Assembly: GCA_002796835.1 (NCBI GenBank)
Contig: LUGL01000040.1
Span: 37,432 to 101,431, forward strand
Direction: 5' to 3'
Length of the DNA stretch: 64,000 nucleotides
Origin: Elainella saxicola E1
GTDB taxonomy: Bacteria > Cyanobacteriota > Cyanobacteriia > Elainellales > Elainellaceae
A model generated the notes under the pieces. That model was given only the letters and a program-made list of their open reading frames with translations. It was not told the origin of the DNA and ran no database searches. The position numbers were made by a program, and so were the translations under genes. Shown here piece by piece: positions 31,991-60,171 of the stretch. Position 1 is the first letter of the stretch, and each line of letters starts with the position of its first letter.

Positions 31991-32184
31991 GCAACGATTA
32001 TTCTCTGAAGCAGCTTATAAAAATCCATCGCGGTTTCAATCTAGATGGCGATAGACAAGCTACAATACACAGCACCAAGGAATATTTAGTATAAAAGTAC
32101 TATTCCATTGGCTTGATTTTGATATTTAGTGGCGATCGCCGAATTATCAGTTTCCAACTCCGCACCTACTCCCCATTCCCACCC

Positions 32185-35022
32185 ATGGTTCAAGAACTCA
32201 GCTTTCAAGGATATAGCGATCGCCTTCCGCCTCAAAATGTCGATGCCGAAGAAGCGATTTTGGGTGGAATCCTGCTAGATCCGGAAGCGATCGGTCGAGT
32301 CCTGGAAATCCTGCGGCCTGAAGCGTTTTACATCAGCGCCCATCAGGAAATTTATCGGGCGGCGATCGCGCTTCAAGCCCAGGGCAGACCCACTGATCTG
32401 ATGAGCGTCACGAGTTGGCTACATGATCATGGCACGCTGGAAAAAGTGGGCGGACAAGGCCGGATTGCGGAACTGGTCGATCGCACGATTAGTGCCGTCA
32501 ATATTGATCAGTACGCCCAGTTGGTAATGGAGAAATATCTGCGGCGCAAGCTGATCCAGGTGGGTACAGAAGTGGCGCAGCTCGGCTATGAAACCAATAC
32601 GCCGATCGAAAAAATTCTGGATCAGTCGGAGCAAAAGATTTTTGGCATTACCCAGGCCAGACCGCAACAAAGCCTTGTGGCAACCTCAGATATTCTCACT
32701 ACGACCTTTTCCGATATTGAAAGCCGATCGCTCGGTTTAGTACTGCCCGGTATTTCCTGCGGCTTCTACGATTTGGATGCGATGACGCAAGGCTTTCAGC
32801 GATCGGATTTGATTATTGCTGCGGGTCGTCCCTCCATGGGGAAATGCCTCGCCTATGATTCCGAAATCGTTCTCCAGGATGGTTCGATTGCCACGATTCA
32901 AGCTTTGTATGAACAGCGACAGGCCAACCTGCTGACTTTAGGCCACGATTGGAAGCTAACTTGGACGCAACCTTCTGCTTTTGTAGATGATGGTATCAAA
33001 CCCGTATTTCGCGTCAAGACTCGACTGGGGCGATCGATCGAAACCACGCTGACTCATCCCTACCTGACAATGCAGGGCTGGCGAAAACTGGCTGAACTGC
33101 AACCAGGTGACAAGATTGCCGTACCGCGCCGAATTCCTTGTTTTGGTGATCAAACATTGCCAGCGCACCAAATTAAACTGCTCGCTTACCTGATTGGTGA
33201 TGGCTGCCTGACCCATACTTGTCCCAGTTTCACTAACACCAATCCCAAAATTCAGCAGGACTTTATTCAGGCAGTTCAGCAGTTTGGGAATTTAAATGTT
33301 CGCGTTGAAACCTATCAAGGACAACGGGCTCCCAGCTTTTACATCGCCACCGATTTTGGCAAACTGGCCATCCATCGTCAGCAGTTTGGTCAGGCATTGA
33401 AACAACAGCTTGCGGTTGCTGCCCTTGAAGGTTGCAATTTAGCAAAGCGGCTGAACGTCAGTCCGTCGCTGGTCAGCCAATGGCAACAGGGTGTTTGCGC
33501 CCCCAGTCGGGAAATGTTCACAGCGCTTTGTGAAATTTTGCAGGTTTCAGCCGAAGTTCTCGCACCCGAAGGATTCTCTAGCATTGAAGCTAAAAATTCA
33601 CTGACAGACTGGCTCAAGCAACTCCAGCTTTGGGGGAAAGATGCTCATACCAAGACAATTCCTTCGATTGTGTTCTCGCTCGAACGGTCCCAACTCGCAC
33701 TGTTCCTTAATCGGTTGTTTGCTACAGATGGTTGGGCAACGGTGCTGGCCAGTGGACAGTCCCAGCTAGGTTTTGCCAGCGTCAGTGAGAAATTAGTGCG
33801 ACAAATTCAGCATTTGCTGCTGCGGTTTGGTATCATTGCCGCACTTAAGCAACGCACTGTGAAATATCAAGCGGAGCGTCGCATCTGCTGGCAACTTGAC
33901 ATTACTGATGCGATGTCAATTCAAACTTTCATCGATCAAATCGGTATTTTTGGCAAAGAATCAGCTGTTGCAGCCGTCAGAGTAGCACTTCAGAGTAAGC
34001 GATATCAGACGAACCGTGATTTAATTCCACTCGAAATTTGGCCGCAAATTGTTCAGGGTAAAGGATCACAATCTTGGCGAGCCGTTGCCCTTAAAGCAGG
34101 CATTGCTGGATCTTCCAATATCCATGTGGGCAAACGTGCTCCGACTCGCGATCGTCTATTGGCCCTTGCGACTGCCCTAGAAGCTCCAGAGCTTCAGGCA
34201 CTTGCAACTTCAGATATCTACTGGGATGAGATTGTGACGATCGAGCTAACTGGCTACAAGCAGGTGTATGACCTGACCATTCCAGAAACTCATAACTTTG
34301 TGGCAAACGATATCTGCGTACACAACACTAGCTTCGTGTTGAATATTGCGCGAAATATTGCGGCTTTTCACAAAATGCCGATCGCCGTTTTCAGCTTAGA
34401 AATGTCAAAAGAACAGCTGGTGTATCGCTTGCTCTCCAGTGAAGCGCAGGTGGAAAGTGGGCGATTGCGATCGGGCCGGATTAGTCAAAATGAATGGGAG
34501 CCGCTCGGTCATGCAATTAGCGTACTTTCCCAGTTGCCTGTGTTTATTGACGACACGCCGAATATTTCAGTCACAGAGATGCGATCGAAATGTCGGCGGC
34601 TTCAGGCGGAGCAGGGTGGCGCATTGGGACTGGTGCTGATCGACTATTTGCAGTTGATGGAAGGCAGCGGCAGCGATAACCGGGTACAAGAACTCTCGAA
34701 GGTGACCCGTGCCCTGAAAGGCTTGGCCCGTGAACTCCAGGTTCCGGTGATTGCCCTGTCCCAGCTCAGCCGAGGGGTGGAAGCTCGGACAAATAAACGA
34801 CCCATGATGTCAGACTTGCGGGAAAGCGGATCGATCGAACAAGATGCCGACCTGATCATAATGCTTTACCGCGATGAGTACTACAACCCAGACACGCCCG
34901 ATCGAGGCATTGCGGAAGTGATTATTACCAAACACCGGAATGGTCCTGTAGGCACAGTCAAACTTTTGTTTGAGCCGCAATTCACCCGCTTCCGCAATCT
35001 GGCCTCTCCAAATCGAGCTTGA
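32185..35022 (+). CDS. dnaB: Replicative DNA helicase DnaB with in-frame intein
   Basis: The precursor is 945 residues; removing the intein (32845-34326) leaves a 451-residue DnaB, the usual length. The N-terminal domain (PPQNVDAEEAILGGILLD) binds primase; the RecA-like domain has Walker A split by the intein (GRPSMGK | TSF), Walker B LVLIDYLQLM and the arginine-finger region QLSRGVEARTNKRP. DnaB unwinds the replication fork as a hexamer. The longer open frame from 32113 is not needed: ATG 32185 (MVQELSFQGYSDRLPP) starts the conserved region. The second known cyanobacterial insertion site (near SGSIEQDADL) is empty. The stop codon is 2 bp from the convergent FKBP gene. Confidence 0.97.
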   Translation: MVQELSFQGYSDRLPPQNVDAEEAILGGILLDPEAIGRVLEILRPEAFYISAHQEIYRAAIALQAQGRPTDLMSVTSWLHDHGTLEKVGGQGRIAELVDRTISAVNIDQYAQLVMEKYLRRKLIQVGTEVAQLGYETNTPIEKILDQSEQKIFGITQARPQQSLVATSDILTTTFSDIESRSLGLVLPGISCGFYDLDAMTQGFQRSDLIIAAGRPSMGKCLAYDSEIVLQDGSIATIQALYEQRQANLLTLGHDWKLTWTQPSAFVDDGIKPVFRVKTRLGRSIETTLTHPYLTMQGWRKLAELQPGDKIAVPRRIPCFGDQTLPAHQIKLLAYLIGDGCLTHTCPSFTNTNPKIQQDFIQAVQQFGNLNVRVETYQGQRAPSFYIATDFGKLAIHRQQFGQALKQQLAVAALEGCNLAKRLNVSPSLVSQWQQGVCAPSREMFTALCEILQVSAEVLAPEGFSSIEAKNSLTDWLKQLQLWGKDAHTKTIPSIVFSLERSQLALFLNRLFATDGWATVLASGQSQLGFASVSEKLVRQIQHLLLRFGIIAALKQRTVKYQAERRICWQLDITDAMSIQTFIDQIGIFGKESAVAAVRVALQSKRYQTNRDLIPLEIWPQIVQGKGSQSWRAVALKAGIAGSSNIHVGKRAPTRDRLLALATALEAPELQALATSDIYWDEIVTIELTGYKQVYDLTIPETHNFVANDICVHNTSFVLNIARNIAAFHKMPIAVFSLEMSKEQLVYRLLSSEAQVESGRLRSGRISQNEWEPLGHAISVLSQLPVFIDDTPNISVTEMRSKCRRLQAEQGGALGLVLIDYLQLMEGSGSDNRVQELSKVTRALKGLARELQVPVIALSQLSRGVEARTNKRPMMSDLRESGSIEQDADLIIMLYRDEYYNPDTPDRGIAEVIITKHRNGPVGTVKLLFEPQFTRFRNLASPNRA
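32845..34326 (+). mobile_element. Intein with LAGLIDADG homing endonuclease in the DnaB P-loop
   Basis: A 494-residue protein-splicing element. It starts with Cys (CLAYDSEIV), has the block B Thr/His pair (TLTHPYLTMQGWRKL), and ends VYDLTIPETHNFVAND...VHN with the penultimate His-Asn; the +1 extein residue is Thr. All splicing residues are thus present. Two LAGLIDADG-type helices with acidic residues are seen (LLAYLIGDGC at about 33181 and FLNRLFATDGW at about 33703), so the endonuclease may be active. Between and after them are two helix-turn-helix-like stretches (about 33433-33550 and 34072-34200). Insertion directly after the P-loop Lys makes helicase activity depend on splicing. Confidence 0.96.
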
Positions 35023-37037: not shown

Positions 37038-40000
37038 CTAGTTCGATAGCTGAGCACATTGGTCATTTGCAAGTTTTAAGTAGCGTCTACATTCCTGGGG
37101 TGTGAGTTGGCGTACACTTCGCTCAGAGGCAATTTTAAGCAACATCTCTTGCGTTGCCGCCCAGAAGTTGACTTGCCCATCCTGCGTTAGGGTCACAACA
37201 TACTGCCCATCCGGACTGAAGAAGGCTTGCTCGATCGCTCTCAGTTCCTCATTGGCAGAGGAAACAGTTAACGTCGTCTGCTCTTCCCCAGTGGTTGCAT
37301 TCCAAAGCCGTGCTGTGCCATCTGAACTGGCAGTCACCAGTTGTTGTCCATCTGGGCTGAACTCAACATCCAGAATTGCCTTCTGGTGACCCTCTAGTTG
37401 GAACAGCGCTTTACCGGTACTGACTTGCCAAACCTGAGCAGTGCCATTCCAATTGGCTGTCACCACACGATGGCCATCTGAACTAAACGCAACGCTGCTC
37501 ACTGCATCCTGATGCGGCAATACTGTTATCATCCGCCCTGTATCAGCTTGCCAAATTCGGGCCGTTTTGTCCCAGCTCGCACTGATGATCCACTGTCCAT
37601 CCGGACTGTATTTTGCCTGATGAATTGTTGCGCCATGTCCCTGAAAAACTTGTTGCAACTGCCCTGTTTGGGTTTGCCAGGAACGCATTGTCAAGTCATC
37701 TGCAATTCCCAAGAGCTGATGATTATCAGGGCTAAAGATAAGGCGGCGAATTGCAGTGGGTTCACCTACCTGCTGCTGGGTAGCACCCGTTGCAGCACTT
37801 GCAAGCGGAAGCGTAGCATCAAGTATTTGGCTCACAGGGCTTTGTTCTGTAGACAACCGCCAATTTTGCAAACGGTATGCCAACTGTAGAGACTGATCTG
37901 GCTGAATTTGGTAGACCACAACTTGACCATCAACATGGGCTGCTGCTAACCAACGACCATCCGGACTGGCAACAACGCTACTCGGTGCTGCATCAGTTTG
38001 ATTGAGCTTTAATCTATCTTGCCAATGCATCATCGCAGCAGTGGTAGAATTCGCCGGATGAAAAAGATAGGAAAGCCGATCGAAACCAAGCATTGCAGGC
38101 TGGGTCGCCGCACGACCTATCTGGCCGAATTGGGATTGAGTTAAAGCTAATAGTTTATCTGACCATGTAGAAGCGCTATCTGGAGATTGCAGTGCAGCAA
38201 CATGAGCCCCTGAAACTCCACGTAAGTCAGAGAGACTCGTTGAATTAGTCAAGATTTGCCACCGTTGGATTTGACCATCAGCTGAAATCAGCATCATATT
38301 GCTGACAACATTGGTTAACTCTGAGGTTGCAGTTAGGTTCGTTGAATTAACTTGAGTCTTAGCAGAGTTGTCTTGTGCACTGTTTTCAGCACCCCATGCC
38401 TCTGAAGGAGCCATTTGCCAGTTGAACCAGTTCTGCCACTTTGTTTTGACCACGCGATCGAGCAGCGTTAACGAGTCAGCACCTTGAAAATTGCTTGTTC
38501 TCCCTTTGGAATCGATCGCATTGATTGAGGATGAGAATACTTTGTGAGTCGTATCAGCCAAAATTTCACTAGAAGTAGCTTTGGAATAAAGCACTTGGCT
38601 TGGCAAGAATGTTAACGAAGTACTTGCATCTTTTAACTGAACCGAGGGCAATTCCCCTCCCAAAGTCGCATTCCATAACCGCACAGTTCCATCCATACTG
38701 GCGGTCACAATATAAGTTCCATCTGGGCTAAACTGCACACCCGTAATTGGTTCGCGATGTCCAGGTAATCGTCCTACTTGCTGTCCGGTTACACTATTCC
38801 ACAAATAGGCAGTATAGAAGCCATTACGGGAGTTTGGTTGGGAATCTGTAGTAACTACTATCTGATTGTTTGGGCTAAATTGCAGAAGATCTGGACTTCC
38901 AACACTCATTTGTCTCTCTTCATGAGATTTCAGCGTTCGATTCTCTAACTTCGTTTGCAATTGTCCAGATTCAGTATTCCAAATCCAAACTTGCTGATTA
39001 GCATCCAAGGTTGCGATCAAATGCTCATCTTCAGCAAAGACCATCTGCTTCATTGACGGGAAATCATCCAGTTGATCTGCCTCTACTTGAACTGCTGATG
39101 CCAGTTGCCCCTTAAGCGAATTGGCAGGTTTTGTTGGAGAAGAGATCGTCAATTGCCGCTGCAACTGCCCCGTTTGGCTATCCCAGAGTCTGACTTTTCC
39201 ATCCTCACAAAGTGTTGCGATCCAGCGACCATGAGCGCTAAATTTTGCCTGAACAACCCCATCTGGATGGTTGAGCGTCTTCACAGATTTCAATCCAGTA
39301 GTCCCATCTAGACTGGACTGAATTTGCCACATCTGCACCGTACCATCTTCACCAGCCGTCAGCACAAACTGGCCATCCGGGCTAAATTCCAAGCTGTTGA
39401 TCACTTTGTTGCTCAGCAATTTTGCCTTGAGTTCCCCTGTGGCAGCTTGCCAGACTGAGATTGTCCGATCGTCTTCTAATCCAACAATCCATTCTCCATT
39501 CGGACTGAAACGAACCTGTTTCGCAACCGATGCCCCAACTAGTTGCCGTAGTACCTTGCCTGATGCAACTGACCAAAGTTTGATTGAAGAAGACTGCTGT
39601 TCTGTTGCGGCTAGCGTTTGTCCATCTGGACTGAAAGCGATCGATTGAATTCTTGTTTGATCTTGGGTTGCTTGCCCTGTTTCAGACCAAACTAACGTCT
39701 TTTCAGCTTGAAGCGCCGTATTGTAAATGGTTTTAGGCTTCATCGCCCATAAGCGAATTGTGCCTTCTGTTCCTACAGTTGCTAGATATTGATGATCAGG
39801 ACTGAAGACCATTTGCTGGACTCCACCTCTATGGCCTTGGATCTCTGACTGCAACCTGAGATTTTGCAAGGCAGCTCTGAGACTTGCCTGTGCCTCGGTA
39901 TTAGTTCGATCGCTCTCTACAGCTAATCGACTAATCAGCAATGCCGTCATTGGGTCAGCATCAGTATCTTGTACAACTGCTTGGGCGATCGCTGCTCGTT

Positions 40001-42422
40001 CTCGTGCTGTAGCCTGCTGTAACTGATCTTTTTGTTCAGTTTGAGTTCGCACTACCCCATAATACTGAGCCAGTACAACTGTCAAGGTGGCCACTAATAG
40101 CGAGGGAATTGTCAGCCGCAAGCGGCGAGAGGCCCGTCTGGTGCGCAAGCATTCGGCACAACTGACGCTGATATACTGCTGCGCTAAAGCTGAAAGCTCT
40201 GGGGCATGAAGTTTCAAGAAATCTTCTGCATCTCTCAACCGCAATCCATGCAGCAAGTAGTCTCCAGAGACAGGCTGTCCCGCTTGATTCCACTCCTGAG
40301 CCGCCTGTTCAATCCGCCGTTGCCGCCGCAAAACTTCCCGGCTTTCCTCTAACCATCCTCTCAGCAGTGACCAATTACGAATCAGGGCTTCATGGGCAAC
40401 ATCAACCATTTCTGCCATACAAGAAGCTTGTAAAGTCCTGACTAGAGTAGGGGCATTCGTTCGTAGCTCGGAGGAGGCAGAACCAACGCTGGCCTTGCTG
40501 AGATCAGGGGTATCTTGCATCAATGGGTCACAACTGGCGTTTTCCTGACTAATGATGATCAGTTTGGCAGCAACGAGCTTTTCTAACACCTGCTCAACCA
40601 GTACCTGAGAAAAAGCAGGACTGACCAGATCAGATTTTGCAACTCTACGGCGTGTATCTTCCGTCCCTTCTCCCAGTTGAGTCAATGAAAGAAACACTCG
40701 CTTTGCAATCCCCTGTTCGTCAGGCGACAAACTCTGAAAAACCTCAGTAGCACGCTTTTGCAAGGTGCCCCGCACCCCACCTAGCTCCTGATATGCATCT
40801 AGCGTCAACCTCGCCACTCCACCTTCAATCCCCACTCGGCGCTTGCGCCACAGTTCCAGCAGGGTATATTGCAATAGCGGTAATTCTCCTGGAGCACCAA
40901 TCACATCCATCATCATGGTGTAAACCAGATTAGGCTCACAAACTAACCCAACTTTCTGGGCAGGCTGCATGATTGTGGCTTTAATCTGTTCGTACTTTAA
41001 GGGTGAGACAGTGACTTGATGTTGGAAGATTTGTTGGGCTAATCCTTCATAAAAAGAGCATTTGCCAAGGAAGTCCGATCGCAATACGATTACGACACTC
41101 AGCACATCCTTTACGCTATCGAGTGCTCCTACGAGGCAGTCGAAGAATTCCTGACGTTCTCTCTCAGCTTGAGCTCCTTGCGACAAAGTAAACACTTCTT
41201 CAAACTGATCGATAATCAAAAGAAAGCGAGGACGATGCTCAGGCAATAAACTGGTCGATCGCGAAGTTTCAGGGAGACTTGCTCGCACTAATTGGGCTAA
41301 GCCAACCCCTCCATCTTGTAGAAAAGTTTCTGCACGACGCAGTTGTTCTGCTCGTTCCAGGTCGCTCAAATCTGGCTTGATGAAAGCGGCAGCCAAACTT
41401 TTAAGCGGATGGTCCGTTGGAGTAATTAACTTAATCTTCCATTGATCGCTGTTGGGCACCTTTTTACCTTGGCGCAGTTGAGCAATTAATCCAGCCCGCA
41501 CTAACGATGACTTACCACTGCCAGAAGCCCCAGTCACAGCCACAAAATGCTCGTGCATGAGTTTCTGCAGCAGTTGACCAACCAGTTTTTCTCGGCCAAA
41601 GAAGTATTCAGCATGCGATTCATCAAAGAACTCCAAACCTCGGTAAGGACAGATTTCTTTCGAGGACTGGGAAATAGCCGGTTGTGATGTGGTCCGCTGC
41701 CCATTACAGCGCGTGAGGATAATTTCACTCCCGGAACTTTCAAACAGCGGCTGCTGAATTTCTCCCTTAAGCGAATAATTGACCCAATCGGTCAGAGCAT
41801 GGTTGGTAACAATGCCAGACTCAAGCCGATGCGGGTCTAGACCCGTTAACAAAGCTTCTGTAAAGACGCTGTACTGGCTCTCAAGCGATTCATACGCCGT
41901 TTCAAATTCTCTTGATGCAGCCATAAAGAGGCGATCGGTACCGGGATGCGCTCCTGGATCAGCCTCCAGAAAATTGAGGAATTCGCCGCTATGGCAACAA
42001 TCTAGCCAAATGATCCGTTGGCGTACCGGGCTTTCCTGCAACAGTCGTCGTAACCAGAAGAGGGATAATCCATAGAATCCTTGATCTGGATTGGAATCAC
42101 TCAGGGCTAGATAGCCTTCTTGAATGCCAGCATCTCGCTGAATTCCATGCCCAGAAAAATAGAATATGGCCGTTTGAGGAATCGAACTACCTTTCGGCTT
42201 AAACAGATTGATTAGAGCTGTTTCTAGCTCTCGCAACGTCACCTGCGTTTTTTGTCCTATCTGCGGTTTACCGTCCTGAATCACTTCAGGTAGACGGTGG
42301 ACTCTAAACTCACCATCTGTATAAAGCCTTTGAGCAATTGCCTCTGCGTCCCGCGCTGGGGCTTTTAAGCTAGGCAAAGACTGATATGTATTAACCCCTA
42401 CGACCAAAGCATCCCGTGACAT
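37038..42422 (-). CDS. Caspase-like (C14) - nSTAND NTPase - WD40 repeat protein
   Basis: A 1794-residue multidomain protein. Residues 1-235: caspase/metacaspase-type domain with catalytic His92 (FYFSGHGI) and Cys143 (WLDCCHSGEF). About 265-700: an nSTAND-type NTPase (PYRGLEFFDESHAEYFFGRE, P-loop GASGSGKSS at about 297-305, LLIIDQFEEVF). About 768-790: one membrane helix (IPSLLVATLTVVLAQYYG). About 860-1770: WD40 repeats, many with FSPDGQ and LW. An insert without repeats separates two WD blocks at about 1260-1380. Both protease residues are intact. STAND proteins assemble upon ligand sensing, so a regulated-death or antiphage role is plausible but inferred. It is preceded by 1 kb without genes. 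Confidence 0.93.
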   Translation of the reverse strand: MSRDALVVGVNTYQSLPSLKAPARDAEAIAQRLYTDGEFRVHRLPEVIQDGKPQIGQKTQVTLRELETALINLFKPKGSSIPQTAIFYFSGHGIQRDAGIQEGYLALSDSNPDQGFYGLSLFWLRRLLQESPVRQRIIWLDCCHSGEFLNFLEADPGAHPGTDRLFMAASREFETAYESLESQYSVFTEALLTGLDPHRLESGIVTNHALTDWVNYSLKGEIQQPLFESSGSEIILTRCNGQRTTSQPAISQSSKEICPYRGLEFFDESHAEYFFGREKLVGQLLQKLMHEHFVAVTGASGSGKSSLVRAGLIAQLRQGKKVPNSDQWKIKLITPTDHPLKSLAAAFIKPDLSDLERAEQLRRAETFLQDGGVGLAQLVRASLPETSRSTSLLPEHRPRFLLIIDQFEEVFTLSQGAQAERERQEFFDCLVGALDSVKDVLSVVIVLRSDFLGKCSFYEGLAQQIFQHQVTVSPLKYEQIKATIMQPAQKVGLVCEPNLVYTMMMDVIGAPGELPLLQYTLLELWRKRRVGIEGGVARLTLDAYQELGGVRGTLQKRATEVFQSLSPDEQGIAKRVFLSLTQLGEGTEDTRRRVAKSDLVSPAFSQVLVEQVLEKLVAAKLIIISQENASCDPLMQDTPDLSKASVGSASSELRTNAPTLVRTLQASCMAEMVDVAHEALIRNWSLLRGWLEESREVLRRQRRIEQAAQEWNQAGQPVSGDYLLHGLRLRDAEDFLKLHAPELSALAQQYISVSCAECLRTRRASRRLRLTIPSLLVATLTVVLAQYYGVVRTQTEQKDQLQQATARERAAIAQAVVQDTDADPMTALLISRLAVESDRTNTEAQASLRAALQNLRLQSEIQGHRGGVQQMVFSPDHQYLATVGTEGTIRLWAMKPKTIYNTALQAEKTLVWSETGQATQDQTRIQSIAFSPDGQTLAATEQQSSSIKLWSVASGKVLRQLVGASVAKQVRFSPNGEWIVGLEDDRTISVWQAATGELKAKLLSNKVINSLEFSPDGQFVLTAGEDGTVQMWQIQSSLDGTTGLKSVKTLNHPDGVVQAKFSAHGRWIATLCEDGKVRLWDSQTGQLQRQLTISSPTKPANSLKGQLASAVQVEADQLDDFPSMKQMVFAEDEHLIATLDANQQVWIWNTESGQLQTKLENRTLKSHEERQMSVGSPDLLQFSPNNQIVVTTDSQPNSRNGFYTAYLWNSVTGQQVGRLPGHREPITGVQFSPDGTYIVTASMDGTVRLWNATLGGELPSVQLKDASTSLTFLPSQVLYSKATSSEILADTTHKVFSSSINAIDSKGRTSNFQGADSLTLLDRVVKTKWQNWFNWQMAPSEAWGAENSAQDNSAKTQVNSTNLTATSELTNVVSNMMLISADGQIQRWQILTNSTSLSDLRGVSGAHVAALQSPDSASTWSDKLLALTQSQFGQIGRAATQPAMLGFDRLSYLFHPANSTTAAMMHWQDRLKLNQTDAAPSSVVASPDGRWLAAAHVDGQVVVYQIQPDQSLQLAYRLQNWRLSTEQSPVSQILDATLPLASAATGATQQQVGEPTAIRRLIFSPDNHQLLGIADDLTMRSWQTQTGQLQQVFQGHGATIHQAKYSPDGQWIISASWDKTARIWQADTGRMITVLPHQDAVSSVAFSSDGHRVVTANWNGTAQVWQVSTGKALFQLEGHQKAILDVEFSPDGQQLVTASSDGTARLWNATTGEEQTTLTVSSANEELRAIEQAFFSPDGQYVVTLTQDGQVNFWAATQEMLLKIASERSVRQLTPQECRRYLKLANDQCAQLSN

Positions 42423-43416
42423 TGATACACCCTCTACAGAACTAAAGCTAATCTCAATTCCAATAGAACTTTAACGATTAGCCAACACCTCTAAATTCAC
42501 CTAATGCAGTGAATATGATCGATTAACGAATTTAGAGAGTCAGTGTTTTCATATCATTCATTAATCCAGAAAAGTTGGAGCATACTTTTCTAAAACAGCT
42601 GAATCACTCCAAACTCTCAAAACTTAGATCAACCATCATTCGTGATCTACATCACTATTTGTTTGTGATAAAAATAGCTTCAATTTCAAAGTTATTGAAG
42701 TAATCAGAAGACTAATTAAAAACATCGAATTGATTGCCATTTTTTCAGAGTTTGTGAGCAAAGAATATTCACTACACTATGACAATATCCAACATTTTCA
42801 CGAGTGTAAAAGGGGGTAAGAGCCCCTTTAATAAAAGGTTTCAGGTAAAAATTAGCGATCGAAATTAAGCTCGAAAATGAAGATTATTTAATGTTAACCG
42901 TCAAAACACGGAAAGTCCTAAGTAGGCCAAATAATATCTCCGTAATTATGCAAATTGATCACAGAAAACTTGTCATTAATTGTGTTTTTCCAGGGTAGCT
43001 ATTCCCTCCAAACCACTAAAGTTTAGAGGAACAAGCTCGCCATTTTGGATAAAATCTAAAAAATTTTTGAGGTGGTCACTGCTGACACAATCTATTTATT
43101 CCAAGCTTGAAAATTGAGAATTTTCCCTTGTATAATTCTGATTTCGAAAGAATCAAAAGCAATTTCATAGAGTTTCTCATCAAGCTAGGATCCTAATACA
43201 TCAATTTACTCTTAAAAGAGAAAAATTAGCAGTTCAGAAAAAGGCGATCGGCCACCCGGATAACTTTGTCAAAAATGCAAAAATGAGGCTGATTGTTAGG
43301 GCTTGAAAAATGTTTCTTTAGCCGCTTCAACCAGGACTGAATGTCAGTCCTTACCAGTGACACAGTTGAAGACTGAATTCTTTCGATAAAATGTCTCTAT
43401 TGCATTAAGAGATAGA
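42423..43416. other. Gene-free AT-rich divergent region (994 bp)
   Basis: The longest non-coding stretch in the window, between the caspase-WD40 gene and hflX. It is AT-rich with no ORF of note. A hairpin AAAGGGG / CCCCTTT lies at 42809-42829, followed by a short T/A-rich stretch. A possible promoter of hflX (TTGAAG near 43364 and TAAAAT near 43386, spacing short) precedes the gene. No tRNA, known small RNA or inverted-repeat mobile element was recognised. Confidence 0.55.
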
Positions 43417-45123
43417 TTGAGCGTGCCTATCGAGACGATATATGGTCAGCTCCATGGCTTAAAATCCAGTCAATTAAAGCAACTTCAGCGGTTGTATCAT
43501 CAGCGGTTGCCAATCGATCGGCTAGTTACTCCCGAATTTGCCCAGCGACTAGCAGCCATTAGTACTGACATCAATCAGCCTCTTTGCACCTATATCAACC
43601 GACGCGGACAAGTGATTCGGGTTGGAGTAGGTACCATTCGGCAAACTCAGATCCCGCCAACTGAACTGCCTCGTTATGGAGCAGAGCGGCTGAGTGGAAT
43701 TCGCTGCATCTCAACTCAGTTGAAAGCGACCTATCCGAATGAAGCAACTTTGACCGCAATGGCATTTCAGCGATTGGACGCTCTGGTTGTTTTGACCCTA
43801 ACGGGTGAAGGTTTTGCAAGGCGCGGTGGCGCGGCAACAGGATATGTGAAAGAAACCTATCTTGCACATTTGCTACCCCACCCAGAAGCACAATGGACCG
43901 TGTCTCCTCCCATCAGCCTAGAGATCTTAAGTAATCAAGATTTCAATGAGCTAACAGATAGCTTAGAAGAAGAATTTCGTCGCGAATACATCTCCCAGCA
44001 GGTAGGGCATGAAGACGATCGGGTTTTGCTCGTTGGTTTAATGACTCGAGATCTTTCCCAAACTGCTTTCAGTAATGAGTTGCTGGAGTTAGAAAAACTG
44101 GTTGAGACTGCAGGTGGGGAGGTTGTCGAAGTTTTGAAACAAAAACGAACCTCAGCACACCCTCAAACCGTTGTGGGAGAAGGAAAAGTACAAGAAATAG
44201 CCTTGGCAGCGCAAACCTTGGGTGCCACGTTGGTGGTGTTCGATCGCGATCTTTCCCCCACTCAGGTGCGAAATTTAGAAGCTCAGATCGGAGTGCGCGT
44301 TGTCGATCGCACAGAAGTGATTTTAGATATTTTTGCCCAGCGAGCCCAATCCAAAGCAGGAAAACTCCAGGTCGAACTGGCTCAGCTGGAATATATGCTG
44401 CCTCGATTGACCGGACGTGGCCGCATGATGTCCCGGTTAGGAGGAGGAATTGGGACAAGAGGTCCTGGAGAAACCAAACTAGAAACCGAACGACGTGCCA
44501 TTCAACGCCGGATTACTCGACTCCAGCAAGAGGTGAATCAGCTTCAGGCTCATCGATCGCGGCTGCGTCAACAGCGGCAGCATCAAGAGGTTCCTTCGGT
44601 CGCTATCGTAGGTTATACCAATGCAGGCAAATCAACCCTACTCAACGCATTGACAAATGCAGAGGTTTATGCAGCCGATCAACTCTTTGCCACCCTAGAT
44701 CCAACCACTCGTCGCCTAGTCATCACAGAAGCAACAACTCAACAGTCTTTGGCGATCGTTCTCACCGATACAGTCGGCTTTATTCATGAGTTGCCGCCCA
44801 CCCTAATGGATGCATTTCGGGCAACCCTTGAGGAGGTAACTGAGGCAGATGCCTTACTCCATGTCGTAGATCTGTCCCATCTTGCTTGGCAAGACCAGAT
44901 CCGATCGGTGATGACCATCTTGAAACAAATGCCTCTGACTCCAGGACCAATTCTGCTGGCTTTTAATAAAGTCGATCAGGTGGATGGCGATACCCTCAGA
45001 TTGGCTCAAGAAGAATTTCCACAAGCCTTGTTCATTTCAGCAGTTGATCGGTTAGGGCTAGAAACCCTGCGCCAAAGATTGGCTGAATTAGTCCGCTATG
45101 CCGTCTCTGTTCGATCTTCCTAG
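43417..45123 (+). CDS. hflX: GTPase HflX
   Basis: A 568-residue ribosome-binding GTPase that splits stalled 70S ribosomes under stress. The cyanobacterial N-terminal extension of about 190 residues precedes the HflX domain (VEVLKQKRTSAHPQTVVGEGK and MSRLGGGIGTRGPGE), a coiled region, and the G domain with G1 GYTNAGKST (about 44613), G3 DTVGF and G4 FNKVD. The start is TTG 43417 or GTG 43423; AAGAGA precedes both. It is monocistronic as far as can be seen. Confidence 0.95.
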   Translation: MSVPIETIYGQLHGLKSSQLKQLQRLYHQRLPIDRLVTPEFAQRLAAISTDINQPLCTYINRRGQVIRVGVGTIRQTQIPPTELPRYGAERLSGIRCISTQLKATYPNEATLTAMAFQRLDALVVLTLTGEGFARRGGAATGYVKETYLAHLLPHPEAQWTVSPPISLEILSNQDFNELTDSLEEEFRREYISQQVGHEDDRVLLVGLMTRDLSQTAFSNELLELEKLVETAGGEVVEVLKQKRTSAHPQTVVGEGKVQEIALAAQTLGATLVVFDRDLSPTQVRNLEAQIGVRVVDRTEVILDIFAQRAQSKAGKLQVELAQLEYMLPRLTGRGRMMSRLGGGIGTRGPGETKLETERRAIQRRITRLQQEVNQLQAHRSRLRQQRQHQEVPSVAIVGYTNAGKSTLLNALTNAEVYAADQLFATLDPTTRRLVITEATTQQSLAIVLTDTVGFIHELPPTLMDAFRATLEEVTEADALLHVVDLSHLAWQDQIRSVMTILKQMPLTPGPILLAFNKVDQVDGDTLRLAQEEFPQALFISAVDRLGLETLRQRLAELVRYAVSVRSS

Positions 45124-53412: not shown

Positions 53413-55641
53413 CTAGCCGCGGCTTTTGTTGTTTATCAAGTGTTCCCACATTTGCATATAAGCTTTTTCCAGTTGTCGGGTAAATTGCTTGGCATTCCAT
53501 AGAGGTGCAGTTTGGCGAGATTGCTGTAGCTGCCAGGTGATCTCTTGCCTCAGGATCGGATTGCTCCCCAAGCGAATTCCCCATTCCACATATTCCTGAT
53601 CAGTCCAGGCAATTCCTTTTGTTATTCCAGCATTGATCATCATCGTGTAGCTATTACGTGCCGCAAACTGCTCGCCAACTCGCGTCACCAACGAGATCCC
53701 CATCCACAGCGCTTCCATCGTCGTCGTTGCACCATTGTAGGGAAAGGTATCGAGGACAATATCGGCAATGCTGAGGTTTGCCCGGTGCGTTTCTTCGTTG
53801 GGACTGTTTGCTAAGAACCGCAATCGGTCGATCGAAACTCCTTCTTCTTGAGCTAACTGGCAAAACAGGTTTTGCTTAGCGGCTTCACTGCCCAATCCCT
53901 TAATGAGAAAGTAGCTATTGGGCACGGATCGAATAATTTTTAATTGCTGTCGAATGTTGTCAGGGTTGCGCTTCTGTCCAGTTTGAGAACTGAAATAGAC
54001 GATCGCATCATTTGGAATATTCAGCGAATCCCGCTTTAAAGTCGGAACGCCCACTTCAAACCCATCCACTGCCAAATAAGTTTGGGGTAAGCGCCAAACT
54101 CTCTCAGTATAGTAATCCTGAGCATGATCCGGCAAGACATAGGGATCGGCAATGAAGTAATCGATGGTGGGAATTCCAGATGCATCTAAGCCCAGCCAGG
54201 TCACTTGAATTGGAGCAGGCTTCAACGCCATTACATTGCAGGTGACATCCATCGTCAAGCTGTCTAGATCAACCAGAATATCAATACCATCTGCTTGAAT
54301 AGTGCGGGCAATCTCAAACGCATCTGCACCACAGAGCCGATGTTGAGTGGCATTCTCTGCGAACCAGCGTTGGCCAAAGGCAGTTAGCTCTTCTTCTAAA
54401 ACAAAATAGGCATAGATCTCAAACCGATCGCGATCGAAGTGCTCAAAAATCCAGCGTGATAGCCAGCCGACCGAATGCCGACGAAAGCAATGACAGAGAT
54501 AGCCGATACGGAGCTTAGATCGATCGGCAAACTGCCCAGCTTCGTCAAATTTGCAATCTTTGATATATGATTTAGTGAACGCTTTAACATTTTTAGTATA
54601 GGAACTAGCTATTTTATTTTGTAGCGATCGCGCTTGTTGGGGATAATCAGAAAAATACGGATAAAGAAACATCGGACTGCACAGGATCAACGGACTAAGT
54701 AGCGTGTTTGTGGGAACTTCCGTCTCTGCTAACCAAGTTTCGAGCAGTTCAGTTAACTGATGCAATGCAGCCTCAGCAGCAGTCCAGCGTCCAGCCATGA
54801 GTAAGTTAGCCCGCACAAGCAGCGCCGCACTCAAGATTTTTTCTGGTAACTGTTCAAATAACTGAAATTGCCGTTCCGCTAGCTCTAAACCTTTTTCGTA
54901 CTGGCCGCTATCTTGATAGAAGCGACTCAAAGTTCCTAAGGTGTGAGCGTGCTCCGGATTGAGTTGGAGACAAAGTTCACTATATTGACAGGCCTCAGCA
55001 TAGTCTCCTTTGAGCGCTAAGCGTTGACCGATCGTCAAAAATCGATCGATCCAGGTTTCGAGATCTGAGAGATAAGGCAAGCAGACTACAGCAAACTCTA
55101 ACGAAACGGGATGGTCTGGTATCCTCTCCAACATTTGCTCCAAAATCATCAGCAATCGATCGATCGGCACATTGTCCTGCTGCTGGAGTTGAGAAATTAG
55201 CCCATATTCATCTAAATCTTCAATCTGAAATGCTCGGATTTCCAGATCTAATTCCAAAAGACGTAGTAAATTATTGAGATTGGTTGGGTTAATTTGATGG
55301 ATATGTTGGTGGATCGTCCAGGCTTGCCAAAATTGCTGGCGATCGGTTTGAGTTTGAGCGGCAGTCTGTAGCGCTGTCAGCAGTTCTGCTGTCCATTGTG
55401 CCTCTGTTTCTGAATCTGGCGCAAGTTCTGTAAAAGGCAGCATCCAGGTGAACTGAGCTTCTTCTTCCTGTTTCTGCAATAAGTACATTAAACCGAGATG
55501 CCAGTAGCCTGTTCTAAAATCAGGCTGTATTGCTAGGATTTGCTCATACAAACTCGCTGCGGCTTCGTAATCACCGATCGCAGTCAATTGCTCAGCTTCT
55601 TGGCACAACGCATCTAGATTCGCATTAGATTCAGCAGCCAT
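53413..55641 (-). CDS. TPR + GT41 glycosyltransferase (SPINDLY/OGT-like), copy 4
   Basis: A 742-residue protein. The N-terminal half has TPR units (LYEQILAIQPDFRTGYWHLG, LNPEHAHTLGTLSRFYQDSG); the C-terminal half (about 380-735) is a GT41 O-GlcNAc-transferase-like domain. Seen: GYLCHCFRRHSVGWLSRW with the His equivalent to OGT H498, LKPAPIQVTWLGLDASG, SSQTGQKRNPDN with the Lys equivalent to K842, and PYNGATTTMEALWMG. The tail LWNAKQFTRQLEKAYMQMWE matches OGT closely. ATG 55641 overlaps the end of copy 3 by 11 bp. It is the most divergent in the acceptor-side TPR part. Donor sugar and acceptor are unknown. Confidence 0.93.
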   Translation of the reverse strand: MAAESNANLDALCQEAEQLTAIGDYEAAASLYEQILAIQPDFRTGYWHLGLMYLLQKQEEEAQFTWMLPFTELAPDSETEAQWTAELLTALQTAAQTQTDRQQFWQAWTIHQHIHQINPTNLNNLLRLLELDLEIRAFQIEDLDEYGLISQLQQQDNVPIDRLLMILEQMLERIPDHPVSLEFAVVCLPYLSDLETWIDRFLTIGQRLALKGDYAEACQYSELCLQLNPEHAHTLGTLSRFYQDSGQYEKGLELAERQFQLFEQLPEKILSAALLVRANLLMAGRWTAAEAALHQLTELLETWLAETEVPTNTLLSPLILCSPMFLYPYFSDYPQQARSLQNKIASSYTKNVKAFTKSYIKDCKFDEAGQFADRSKLRIGYLCHCFRRHSVGWLSRWIFEHFDRDRFEIYAYFVLEEELTAFGQRWFAENATQHRLCGADAFEIARTIQADGIDILVDLDSLTMDVTCNVMALKPAPIQVTWLGLDASGIPTIDYFIADPYVLPDHAQDYYTERVWRLPQTYLAVDGFEVGVPTLKRDSLNIPNDAIVYFSSQTGQKRNPDNIRQQLKIIRSVPNSYFLIKGLGSEAAKQNLFCQLAQEEGVSIDRLRFLANSPNEETHRANLSIADIVLDTFPYNGATTTMEALWMGISLVTRVGEQFAARNSYTMMINAGITKGIAWTDQEYVEWGIRLGSNPILRQEITWQLQQSRQTAPLWNAKQFTRQLEKAYMQMWEHLINNKSRG

Positions 55642-57874
55642 AGGAATTGGGGGATAGAGAATTGCAATAAATCTGCCACATTTGCTGATAAGCATCTTCT
55701 AAATGACGCACGAAGGCAGCAGTATTCCAAAGCGGTGCAGTTTGGCGAGATTGGCGTAGCTTAGCCGCGATCGTTTTACGTAGATTCAGATCTTGCCCTA
55801 AACGAACACCCCATTCTACATATTCATCCGCAGTCCAGGCCATTCCTTCAGTGATTCCAGTATTAATCATCATGCTATAGCTATTGCGAGCTGCAAATTG
55901 TTCTCCCACTAATGTCACTAATGGAATTCCCATCCACAAGGTTTCTAATGTTGTCGTTGCGCCATTGTAAGGAAAAGTATCTAGCACCACATCCGCAATG
56001 CCAAGGTTGGCTCGATGCACCAGTTCATTCCCATCCCGTTCCAAAAAACGGAGGCGATCGATCGAAACACCAGCGTCGATCGCAATCTGTTCGCAGCTTT
56101 CTCGCAGGGTTGACACATCTCCTAAGCCTTTAATTAACAGATAACTGTTCGGCACGGCCTGTAGAATTTGGATTTGCAGCCGGATCGTTTCAGGGTGGCG
56201 TTTGCGGCTATCCTGAGCGCTAAAATAAACAATCGCGTCATTGGGAATCCTTAATTCTTCGCGTCTTAAGGTGGGAATGCCCAATTCAAATCCATCAACA
56301 GCCACGTAAGTTTGAGGTAAGCGCCAAATTTTTTCGCTGTAGTAAGTCTGGGCATCATCCGGCAACACATAGGGATCGGCCAGGAAATAATCAATCGCTG
56401 GAATACCAGAAGCATCGAACCCCAGCCAAGTCACTTGAATGGGAGCAGGCTTAAGTGCCATCACACGACAGGTTTCGGTATAGGTGATGCTGTCGAGATC
56501 GACCAGAATATCAATTCCGTCTTGTTGAATTTGTTGAGCAACCTGAACCCAATGCGTATTTGCAAATTGGGTTGCGTGAGTCACAGGTTGAACAAACCAA
56601 TGATTAGTAAAGTGACTGATTTCAGGAACATGTAGATGATAGGTGTAAATTTCAAAGCGATCGAGATTGTGATGTTGCATCAACCAGCGAGCCAGCCAGC
56701 CCACTGAATGCTGAACCATGTAGCGGGCAATGTAGCCAATTCTTAATTTTCGGTTCGCCGAGCCTTGAGCAAGAACAGGTCGAGACTGGCGTTGCCATCC
56801 GTTTAACTGAGCTTGAAATTCTAGGTCAGTTTGCAGCACATTTGCCAATTGATTTTGCCAATATCGATGTTCTGCAGGTCGATCGCACAAAGAATATGGA
56901 TAGAAGCAGCAAAAGCTAAGTAACGCAGGTAGCAACGGCTGATGCGGATCAGGATAATAATCTGTAATCAATCGCTGGATTAACGTTTTTTGGCGATCGA
57001 ACAAGACCTCAACTTCTTGCCAGCCCGATCCCAATTTGAGCAGCTTAATGCAAAGAAATCCAATTGCCGTTAATTGATCGATCGGCGTTTGACAGGCCGC
57101 GAGATAGTGTCTTGCCGTAACCACCGCTTCAGCATAGTCCCCTAGCTGCTCCTGACAATTTGACAGCACTTTCAAGAGATAAAGATCGTTGGGAGCATAG
57201 CGCAGACACATTTCTGCCAAGTAGCTCATCAATCGAGCATCAGCCAGCCGCGATCGCTGATCAAGTTCGTGGACTTTGGCTACCAGAATATCAAGAATCC
57301 GATCGGCATCTTCAATTTGGCTCAGTGCCGCTTCAGCAAATGTCTGCACTTGCGGGTTAGTAAAATCATGTTCCAGTGCGGCTACAACAGTCTGAAGGAG
57401 CGCGGTTGGATCGAGATTGGAGAAAGATTGCGATCGCAGCAGAGGAGTTAGCGTCAGCGCAGTCAAATCGTCAGTATCAAACCGACCGAGCCGAATCGCA
57501 GCTTGCACTAAATGCAACAAATTGTGAATTTCAGTCGGTAAAAGCTCGCGCAGATGTTGCCGAATCAGCCAGACCGTTTGCCATTCACCTGCCTTGGCCT
57601 GACGATCGGCCTCTGCCTCTAAAATTTGTGCCAGATCGATCGTCCAAGCTTCAACTTGATCAGCAGACCCTGCTGAAAAGGGCATCATCCAGGTGAATTG
57701 TGCCTCTGCCTCTTGTCCTAGTAGCAGATAAGTCAAACCGAGCTGCCAAACAAACTGAACGTGATCAGGTTCCTGTTCGATCAACTGTTCATAGAGTAAG
57801 GCAGCCTGCTGATAATTTTGGCATTCAAATGCCTGCGTCGCCTGTTGGTATAGCACCTCTAAAGATTGATCCAT
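55631..57874 (-). CDS. TPR + GT41 glycosyltransferase (SPINDLY/OGT-like), copy 3
   Basis: A 747-residue paralogue of its three neighbours. The start of the TPR part (LYEQLIEQEPDHVQFVWQLG, TYLLLGQEAEAQFTWMMPF) is nearly the same in all four. In the GT41 domain the His in YMVQHSVGWLARW and the Lys in DSRKRHPETI are kept, as is PYNGATTTLETLWMGIPLVT. ATG 57874 (MDQSLEVLYQQ) is chosen over TTG 57901. It lies 30 bp downstream of copy 2. By family it transfers a sugar from a nucleotide donor to Ser/Thr of a protein. Confidence 0.93.
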   Translation of the reverse strand: MDQSLEVLYQQATQAFECQNYQQAALLYEQLIEQEPDHVQFVWQLGLTYLLLGQEAEAQFTWMMPFSAGSADQVEAWTIDLAQILEAEADRQAKAGEWQTVWLIRQHLRELLPTEIHNLLHLVQAAIRLGRFDTDDLTALTLTPLLRSQSFSNLDPTALLQTVVAALEHDFTNPQVQTFAEAALSQIEDADRILDILVAKVHELDQRSRLADARLMSYLAEMCLRYAPNDLYLLKVLSNCQEQLGDYAEAVVTARHYLAACQTPIDQLTAIGFLCIKLLKLGSGWQEVEVLFDRQKTLIQRLITDYYPDPHQPLLPALLSFCCFYPYSLCDRPAEHRYWQNQLANVLQTDLEFQAQLNGWQRQSRPVLAQGSANRKLRIGYIARYMVQHSVGWLARWLMQHHNLDRFEIYTYHLHVPEISHFTNHWFVQPVTHATQFANTHWVQVAQQIQQDGIDILVDLDSITYTETCRVMALKPAPIQVTWLGFDASGIPAIDYFLADPYVLPDDAQTYYSEKIWRLPQTYVAVDGFELGIPTLRREELRIPNDAIVYFSAQDSRKRHPETIRLQIQILQAVPNSYLLIKGLGDVSTLRESCEQIAIDAGVSIDRLRFLERDGNELVHRANLGIADVVLDTFPYNGATTTLETLWMGIPLVTLVGEQFAARNSYSMMINTGITEGMAWTADEYVEWGVRLGQDLNLRKTIAAKLRQSRQTAPLWNTAAFVRHLEDAYQQMWQIYCNSLSPNSYGC

Positions 57875-57904
57875 ACGCTGCTCTGCATGGGGACCACTCA
57901 AATC

Positions 57905-60157
57905 CTACCGCTTCCCTTCTGCTTTCGCGATCGACTGCGTGTAAATTTGCCACATTTGGGTGTAAGCATTTTCCATCTCTCTAGCAAACGCTTCTGCATT
58001 CCATAGCGGTGCCGTTTGACGGGATTGTTTCAGTTTTTGGGCGATCGTCTCTCTCAAATCAGCATCTTGACCTAGCCGAATTCCCCATGACACATAGTCT
58101 TCCCCAGACCAGGCAATTCCTTCCGTAATTCCAGCATTCATCATCATGGCATAGCTATTGCGGGCCGCAAACTGTTGTCCGACTTGCGTCACCAAGGGAA
58201 TTCCCATCCACAAGGTTTCCAATGTCGTCGTCGCTCCGTTGTAAGGAAACGTATCCAGGACAACATCTGCAATCTCCAAATTTGCCCGATGGGTTTCTTC
58301 GAGTGGTTCTAGCGGCAGGAAACGCAGTCGATCGATCGCCACTCCTTCTGTTTCTGCAATGGACTCAAAGAAATTGCGCAGATTGTTTTGGTCACCTGCA
58401 CCTTTAATCACAAAATAGCTGTTGGGCACGGAGCAAATAATTTGCATTTGCTGTTGGATAGTTTTAGGGTGACGTTTCACTGCCGTTTGCGAACTAAAGT
58501 AAATGATTGCATCATCAGGAATATCAAGATGATTCCGTTGCAACGTCGGCACTCCCACTTCAAATCCATCAATCGCAATATAAGTTCGTGGTAATCGCCA
58601 GATCCTTTCGCTGTAATAATCCTGCGCCGATTCGGGTAGCACGTAGGGATCAGCAATAAAGTAGTCGATCGCCGGATTTCCAGAGGCATCCAATCCCAAC
58701 CAGGTTGCTTGAACGGGAGCAGGTTTCAGCGCCATCACCGCATTTGATTCATTGCAGCTCAGACTATCCACATCAATCAAAATATCAATACCATCCTCAT
58801 AGATCCGCTGCGCCATCCCGATCGGATCGCCCGAAATACAGGTTGCCCTTGTCGCAGGCTTGACATACCAGGTTTCACCAAATTCACCAGGCTGTTGGAG
58901 ATTCAGAAAATAAACATATACTTCAACTTTCGCTGGATCGTGATAACGCAATAACCAACGTGCCAACCAACCGATCGAATGACGGCGAAAATCACGAGAG
59001 AGATAGCCAATGCGCAGTTTTCGATCGGTCGAGCACTGTGGCAAATGATGCTGAAACGGCACGATTTGCCGATCGAGCTGCTTTAACCAGGCATTGCGAC
59101 AACATTGAGAAAACTGGTTTTGCACCGGACGATTTACTTCAGGCCGATCGTCCATATAAGGCCCGTAGAAGAAGTAGGTAGCAATTTCCATTTCGTTGGG
59201 AAATACGGTCGGCTCGTCAGATTGCAGGACTTGCTGCACGAGTTGCTGTTGCTCCTGATAAAGCTGGACTGCATTTTCCCAATATCCACCCGATGTCATC
59301 GTCGTATTCAGCAGCAGCGAAATGCCCACCAATTTCTCGTCCAAAGAGTGGCAGCATTCTTCGTAATAGCGCTTCGCCAACTGAATTGCATCTTCATAGC
59401 GAGGCACAAACCGATAGATATTGGCAGCATATTTGAGCGCTTCGGCATGGTTAGGATCAATTTGCAGACAAGCTTCGCTATATTGCCCCCCCAGCCGATA
59501 ATCTCGTACCACCATCCCCCAATGCTTGGCTTGAGCTAATAACGATTCGATCGCGCCAGCTCTATCTTGGAGATGGGTGATACAAAATTGAATCAGTTCT
59601 TTGAGAGCTGAATGAGACGATTTTTGAGCCAGCAGCGCTGAGAGTAACGGCAACAGCAGATCATCTGATAACTCAGTTCCATCGGCAACCTGCAATTGCT
59701 CCATCATGCCTGCTAACTCATCGAAGTCGAGTCGATCGAGCAAAAGTGAGAGATGCAAACTGCTTAAAAGGTTTTTCAGGTTATCTGGATCGATCGATTG
59801 AATATGCTGACGAATTAACCAGGCTTGAGTCCACTGCTGGCAATCGGCCTGAGTTTGGGCTGCTCGCTCCAGAGTGATCAGCAATTCTTGAGTCCATTGG
59901 ATTGCCTGTTCAGATTCCAGTTCTGCCAAAGGCATCATCCAGGTGAACTGAGCTTCGGCTTCCTGACCTTGCAGCAAATACATCAGGCCCAACTGCCAAT
60001 AGCCCGTGCTGAATTCTGGATCCAGTTCGAGCATCTGCTCATAGAGACCAGCCGCAGCAGCATAGTCTCCTGTTGTCGCCAGTGCTTCTGCCTGGTGATG
60101 CAGACTATCCAGATCGGGAAGCAGATTGAGTTTAGAAGACAGAGATCGATCGCTCAT
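57905..60157 (-). CDS. TPR + GT41 glycosyltransferase (SPINDLY/OGT-like), copy 2
   Basis: A 750-residue paralogue. TPR region about residues 20-300 (LYEQMLELDPEFSTGYWQLG); GT41 domain about 385-740 with GYLSRDFRRHSIGWLARWLL (His kept), LKPAPVQATWLGLDASG, SSQTAVKRHPKTI (Lys kept) and PYNGATTTLETLWMGIPLVT. It is closest to copy 1 in the catalytic part (VRYHD-type helix, VSTPTL stretch, VGQQFAARNSY). ATG 60157 is chosen over TTG 60175. The gap to the end of copy 1 is 14 bp, so translation is probably coupled. Confidence 0.93.
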   Translation of the reverse strand: MSDRSLSSKLNLLPDLDSLHHQAEALATTGDYAAAAGLYEQMLELDPEFSTGYWQLGLMYLLQGQEAEAQFTWMMPLAELESEQAIQWTQELLITLERAAQTQADCQQWTQAWLIRQHIQSIDPDNLKNLLSSLHLSLLLDRLDFDELAGMMEQLQVADGTELSDDLLLPLLSALLAQKSSHSALKELIQFCITHLQDRAGAIESLLAQAKHWGMVVRDYRLGGQYSEACLQIDPNHAEALKYAANIYRFVPRYEDAIQLAKRYYEECCHSLDEKLVGISLLLNTTMTSGGYWENAVQLYQEQQQLVQQVLQSDEPTVFPNEMEIATYFFYGPYMDDRPEVNRPVQNQFSQCCRNAWLKQLDRQIVPFQHHLPQCSTDRKLRIGYLSRDFRRHSIGWLARWLLRYHDPAKVEVYVYFLNLQQPGEFGETWYVKPATRATCISGDPIGMAQRIYEDGIDILIDVDSLSCNESNAVMALKPAPVQATWLGLDASGNPAIDYFIADPYVLPESAQDYYSERIWRLPRTYIAIDGFEVGVPTLQRNHLDIPDDAIIYFSSQTAVKRHPKTIQQQMQIICSVPNSYFVIKGAGDQNNLRNFFESIAETEGVAIDRLRFLPLEPLEETHRANLEIADVVLDTFPYNGATTTLETLWMGIPLVTQVGQQFAARNSYAMMMNAGITEGIAWSGEDYVSWGIRLGQDADLRETIAQKLKQSRQTAPLWNAEAFAREMENAYTQMWQIYTQSIAKAEGKR

Positions 60158-60171
60158 GAGAAATGGTCTGG

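Follow-up and report, generated by a model that had tools for sequence, protein, structure and literature searches.

A caspase-nSTAND1-WD40 protein of a cyanobacterial family as a candidate single-pass membrane receptor-protease

The window, by which we mean the whole stretch of 64,000 nucleotides analysed here, carries on its minus strand one open reading frame, running from 42422 to 37038, for a protein of 1,794 residues with the domain order caspase, nSTAND1 NTPase, transmembrane helix (TM) and WD40 repeats. We propose that this protein is a single-pass membrane receptor-protease, with the caspase and nSTAND1 domains in the cytoplasm and the WD40 part on the other side of the membrane, which is vertically inherited and responds to stress in the envelope or lumen. 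We give this reading a probability of roughly 0.6. Its computed parts are the architecture, the intact dyad and P-loop, the conserved helix, the depletion of cysteines and the synteny with hflX; topology, oligomerisation, proteolysis, ligand and outcome are what we infer.

An intact caspase fused to an nSTAND1 NTPase

The gene lies in a cyanobacterial genome of 8.7 Mb, whose named relatives are Pegethrix, Elainella, Oculatella and Leptolyngbya-like strains. Its features are as follows.

37038..42422, minus strand: whole gene, caspase-nSTAND1-TM-WD40, 1,794 residues (open reading frame, translation, orthologues)
41709..42422, minus strand: caspase (p20) domain, residues 1-238 (PF00656, E=6.8e-17; fold match)
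42147..42149, minus strand: catalytic His92, in SGHG (translation; alignment)
41994..41996, minus strand: catalytic Cys143, in DCCHSG (translation; alignment)
40272..41648, minus strand: nSTAND1 NTPase, residues 259-717 (PF20703, E=2.8e-119; match to the Orc/Cdc6-type STAND/AAA ATPase fold)
41505..41531, minus strand: P-loop GASGSGKSS, residues 298-306 (translation, alignment)
40050..40124, minus strand: membrane helix, residues 767-791, RLRLTIPSLLVATLTVVLAQYYGVV, preceded by RTRRASRR (hydrophobicity scan, relatives, AF2)
39969..40049, minus strand: helical stalk after the membrane, residues 792-818 (AF2; orthologue identity)
38598..39860, minus strand: WD40 propeller 1, residues 855-1275 (Pfam, AF2)
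37998..38597, minus strand: linker, residues 1276-1475, mostly disordered and fast-evolving, 18% identity (AF2, identities)
37128..37997, minus strand: WD40 propeller 2, residues 1476-1765 (Pfam, AF2)
37041..37127, minus strand: C-terminal tail with invariant Cys1778 and Cys1789, a probable disulfide (29 of 29 orthologues, alignment)

The original prediction had described a giant caspase-nSTAND-WD40 protein with an intact dyad and more than ten WD40 repeats, and this description holds in all three respects. The reading frame, whose minus-strand position the prediction had left unsaid, is intact and contains every domain named, both SGHG and DCCHSG are present and invariant in a 38-sequence alignment, and about 15 blades can be counted from their blade-end motifs across two propellers (Pfam WD40 match, E=4.9e-92). 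The full architecture is kept in about 20 genomes of the same family, and is therefore not a product of chance.

A Peptidase_C14 search of the genome returned 12 places, this gene among them. The AF2 model of residues 1-242 matches metacaspase 4 with a Z score of 17.6 (207 aligned, 3.3 Å) and the MALT1 paracaspase with a Z score of 16.9. Judged by its dyad and modelled fold the domain is a caspase-like peptidase of the C14 (orthocaspase) type, for which proteolysis is predicted. The profile of the EACC1-associated caspase, NF047832, scored 95.2 bits, below the NCBIfam cut-off of 140 bits, which places the protein outside that family. Paralogues (L055:7708-12873 in G000:C165 of the same genome, and also L056-L060) have an N-terminal caspase with DACHSG, then a degenerate caspase-like stretch (YLRG, DCPG), followed by nSTAND1-TM-WD40. 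The second stretch is suggested by the alignment and receives no score from Pfam; the two together may possibly form a built-in pair of active and pseudo caspase. We considered whether these paralogues are catalytically dead and rejected this, as the N-terminal caspase domain with DACHSG is present.

The NTPase matches PF20703 over positions 1-377 of the 379 in the profile, at 399.6 bits against a cut-off of 27.1. The P-loop lysine is invariant in 38 aligned relatives, the Walker B motif LLIIDQFEE is intact, and residues 254-592 of the AF2 model resemble Orc/Cdc6 ATPases in structure comparison (Z about 17) and also in Foldseek. By profile and P-loop this is an nSTAND1 domain, from which ligand-dependent oligomerisation is predicted. 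Identity among orthologues falls from 83% in the caspase and 71% in the STAND domain to 40-49% in the propellers, pointing to a constant effector and a faster-changing sensor.

A membrane helix and the side of the sensor

Residues 767-791 are the top candidate for a membrane helix in the protein, with an approximate dG of -0.33 against +2.64 for the next segment, a difference of about 3 kcal/mol on a biological-hydrophobicity scan with approximate parameters, for which just two known helices served as controls. A plain Kyte-Doolittle scan is misleading here, since a segment buried in the NTPase scores above the TM and 767-791 is not the most hydrophobic 19-mer; the call thus rests on the comparison with relatives. 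Across about 70 relatives with WD40 repeats, pentapeptide repeats or no recognised sensor, the segment directly after nSTAND1 is the best or near-best candidate, with several in which another segment scores equal to or above it and some orthologues in which the helix is marginal (dG up to +1.8). In these relatives the flank on the N-terminal side usually carries a charge of +3 to +6 and that on the C-terminal side about 0. Under the positive-inside rule the positively charged flank marks the cytoplasmic side, so the N-terminus would be cytoplasmic.

Two AF2 models, one of residues 1-860 (38-row alignment, mean pLDDT 78, pTM 0.54) and one of residues 740-1794 (28 rows, pLDDT 77, pTM 0.75), both place the TM within an uninterrupted helix of about residues 742-818; the second predicts the two propellers well, with a disordered linker between them. 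Orthologues are 46% identical in the TM and about 60% in its neighbours (60% in the stalk), as expected for a membrane helix and not for a specific buried contact. The helix might have been part of a soluble domain; the one continuous modelled helix, and a segment preceded by Arg/Lys in nearly all relatives, speak against this.

The distribution of cysteines gives a further indication of topology. Taken over 29 orthologues, Cys content drops from 1.19 per 100 residues on the N-terminal side of the helix to 0.30 on the C-terminal side, and it is lower after the helix in every one of them. The C-terminal pair is invariant in the same 29 sequences, with a third, unpaired Cys in about ten of them. 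Among cyanobacterial WD40 controls, 27 TM-linked proteins average 0.38 Cys per 100 residues and 15 TM-less proteins 2.04, and the two sets do not overlap (Mann-Whitney p=5.7e-8, which is optimistic because the TM-linked set includes near-duplicates and may all share ancestry). Exactly two cysteines, at or near the C-terminus, are found in 18 of the 27. The depletion could partly reflect shared ancestry of the TM-linked propellers; the contrast before and after the helix within one protein is unaffected by the makeup of the control set. Such a pattern would be expected of a protein part exported to an oxidising compartment, and the WD40 part is, as far as the sequences indicate, most likely outside the cytoplasm.

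Relatives with other sensors bear on the same question. The caspase-nSTAND1-helix core is followed by pentapeptide repeats in Nostoc relatives and has no recognised sensor in Nodosilinea, Phormidesmis and others. A Streptomyces plasmid protein (L144:3755-6796) has the order caspase-nSTAND1-TM-SBP_bac_3. SBP_bac_3 is a domain that binds solutes outside the cell, and its place in the chain, where the sensor stands, supports a sensor on the outside. The placement of protease and WD40 part on opposite sides of a membrane, as originally predicted, is therefore supported by helix scan, flank charge, cysteine pattern and AF2, as a predicted topology. The accompanying remark that this is not the standard layout was wrong, since the cyanobacterial relatives that we compared usually have a TM separating nSTAND1 from the sensor, and it is further contradicted by the Streptomyces protein and by the topology in PMC7475262.

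We also considered a wholly cytosolic or peripherally membrane-bound fusion resembling Apaf-1, in which the helix would pack in the oligomer or lie on the membrane, with a WD40 part that senses a cytosolic ligand. Among STAND-WD40 proteins Apaf-1 is the best known. Its WD40 region can be aligned with that of this gene, and helix 767-791 is only moderately hydrophobic, both of which would fit such a fusion. It is nevertheless improbable given that the helix is continuous with positive charge on one flank only, that cysteine depletion and the C-terminal pair go with the helix and are absent in the TM-less controls, and that the Streptomyces protein has a solute-binding sensor after its helix. 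Apaf-1 and its apoptosome share with our protein a STAND-type switch, tandem WD40 propellers and a link to caspase activation, but here the protease is in the same chain, the NTPase is nSTAND1 and not NB-ARC, and the protein is membrane-anchored with the WD40 part probably outside. Neither NB-ARC nor CARD is among the Pfam families shown, which together with the fused caspase sets the protein apart from the Apaf-1 family. The VIA-align structure matches include no Apaf-1/NLR chain among those listed, which excludes nothing.

Inheritance and gene neighbourhood

Of 28 genomes sampled from the same family, 26 contain the caspase-nSTAND1 core at E below 1e-150, compared with 67 of 242 in the class, and full-length orthologues, with an overall identity of about 46-59%, were obtained from about 20 of the family genomes. 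Two features upstream of the gene are conserved.

43417..45123, plus strand: hflX (GTPase HflX), divergent conserved neighbour (TIGR03156, E=3.6e-139; synteny)
42785..42915, minus strand: conserved non-coding element upstream of the caspase gene, with a GGGGCTCTTACCCCCTTTT hairpin at about 42808-42829 (comparison of relatives)

The caspase gene is divergent from hflX in 15 named loci, with a gap of about 0.9-2.2 kb in the 12 that were measured. Many relatives have a TPR gene between the two (upstream in 13 loci); in the window the two genes also stand together, separated by 1 kb of AT-rich sequence in which there is neither a TPR gene nor any remnant of one. The distances of hflX and of the caspase gene correlate with r=0.54 among pairs that are not independent, which lends weak support to co-inheritance. 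The non-coding element is made up of a GGGG-loop-CCCCCTTT hairpin and, after it, a GGATAT-type motif; it is found in about 11 relatives, as a single copy in this genome, and the gap has no match in Rfam.

Links to defence were sought in several ways. PADLOC, run on ten neighbours in the window, gave only an intein endonuclease and GTPase cross-hits, and together with the hflX synteny this provides no linkage of the orthologues to other defence genes. A search of a phage collection yielded weak partial matches only, none of which covered 80%. Some homologues are carried on plasmids, and these are less than 60% identical. Elsewhere in the window, the DnaB replicative helicase at 32113-35022 is split by an intein with a homing endonuclease, and 53413-62388 holds a row of four consecutive minus-strand reading frames of 738-760 residues.

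Other branches have different neighbours. A caspase-nSTAND1 gene is divergent from Trypco1 in 16 loci and on a Nostoc plasmid (L126, L141 and other Nostoc loci, and L145), the adjoining branches being the pentapeptide and WD40 relatives. The presence of Trypco domains marks conflict systems that depend on NTP (PMC7159879), and a defence role is therefore more plausible in those branches than for the gene studied here. In 19 loci, for example L102:12834-15620, a WD40-less caspase-nSTAND1 gene has the gene of an SbcC/Rad50-like ATPase downstream of it in the same orientation. The expected placement near defence genes is thus seen in the related branches that adjoin Trypco1 and, judged by the window neighbours and the hflX synteny, not in the orthologues.

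These data bear on the possibility of anti-phage abortive infection, in which phage components or damage would activate the protein and the caspase would kill the infected cell. The caspase-STAND logic, the Trypco1-linked branches (PMC7159879) and the plasmid-borne homologues would all suit this role. The orthologues, however, occur in nearly all sampled genomes of the cyanobacterial family and keep their synteny with hflX, no defence neighbours occur within the window, and the plasmid relatives are distant; we consider it unlikely for this gene. On the gene comparisons, the best reading would be that this lineage has passed it on vertically as a cellular gene and not as a mobile defence cassette. 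Of the sensor of infection or stress that had been predicted, the infection part is accordingly weak and the stress part possible.

Discussion

In the receptor-protease that we propose, the helix would cross the plasma or thylakoid membrane, leaving the caspase and NTPase in the cytoplasm and the two propellers, closed by the C-terminal Cys pair, on the oxidising side in the periplasm or lumen. A ligand, or envelope or lumen stress, would alter the propellers, and the stalk and TM helix would relay this change to nSTAND1, which would exchange nucleotide and then oligomerise. The caspase domains, brought together, would be activated by proximity and cut cytosolic substrates, and the outcome would be either limited proteolysis that serves signalling or a regulated death of the cell. 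A signalling or housekeeping protease with no link to death is a serious though less favoured alternative, whose limited cleavage might serve envelope or photosynthetic stress, or perhaps translation stress through the HflX neighbourhood. Vertical inheritance, the conserved divergent placement beside hflX and the unique conserved upstream element would agree with such a role; synteny alone is no proof of a shared pathway, and other branches adjoin an SbcC/Rad50-like ATPase or Trypco1 instead.

Mycobacterial PknD likewise joins a cytosolic enzyme through one TM to an extracytoplasmic beta-propeller sensor, although its effector is a kinase and its propeller of the NHL type. Closer to our protein, a p20-TM-extracellular WD40 topology was proposed in 2020 for six cyanobacterial orthocaspases (PMC7475262). 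As described there, the transmembrane wild-type orthocaspases (Ava_0039, Ava_3079, GEI7407_1667 and others) have p20, an AAA_16/NACHT NTPase, one TM and WD40 repeats placed outside, the same order in a single chain as found here, and the idea of signal-to-proteolysis is already stated. That topology rests on TM prediction; independent support now comes from cysteine depletion, the invariant Cys pair, the exchange of sensors and synteny, so that the case for the topology is stronger here than before. Caspase-NACHT-WD40 proteins were described in 2010 and 2012 (PMC2853523, PMC3501461), and in the available portions of these papers the metacaspase-NACHT-WD40 or cbMC-beta proteins share the N-terminal caspase, the NTPase and 13-15 WD40 repeats; the NTPase here is nSTAND1 by Pfam, and a membrane helix between NTPase and WD40 is not stressed in those portions. 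Across 473 cyanobacterial orthocaspases, the domains most often found as partners are WD40 and AAA_16 (PMC8283722). The nSTAND1 conflict proteins (PMC8195603, PMC10907252) share the nSTAND1 NTPase, which in them is combined with interchangeable effectors and sensors; unlike them, our protein has no recognised DGR, EAD or death-like adaptor and is encoded by a chromosomal, syntenic gene. The architecture is thus already known, and the cysteine evidence and hflX synteny appear to be new: searches of the open literature, not aimed directly at either point, found no paper on them.

Cyanobacterial caspases are numerous and mostly unexplained. A caspase with a wild-type dyad that is near-universal and syntenic in one family is open to study as a cellular receptor and not as a variable defence gene. 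The cysteine signature makes the topology guessed in 2020 directly testable, with the C-terminus outside and a C1778-C1789 disulfide, and it may apply to many nSTAND1-WD40 proteins. Many of these in cyanobacteria are probably true transmembrane STAND receptors, with an exported, Cys-stripped WD40 part and a C-terminal disulfide, which would pass extracytoplasmic signals to a cytosolic caspase and so form an inside-out counterpart of the cytosolic apoptosome.
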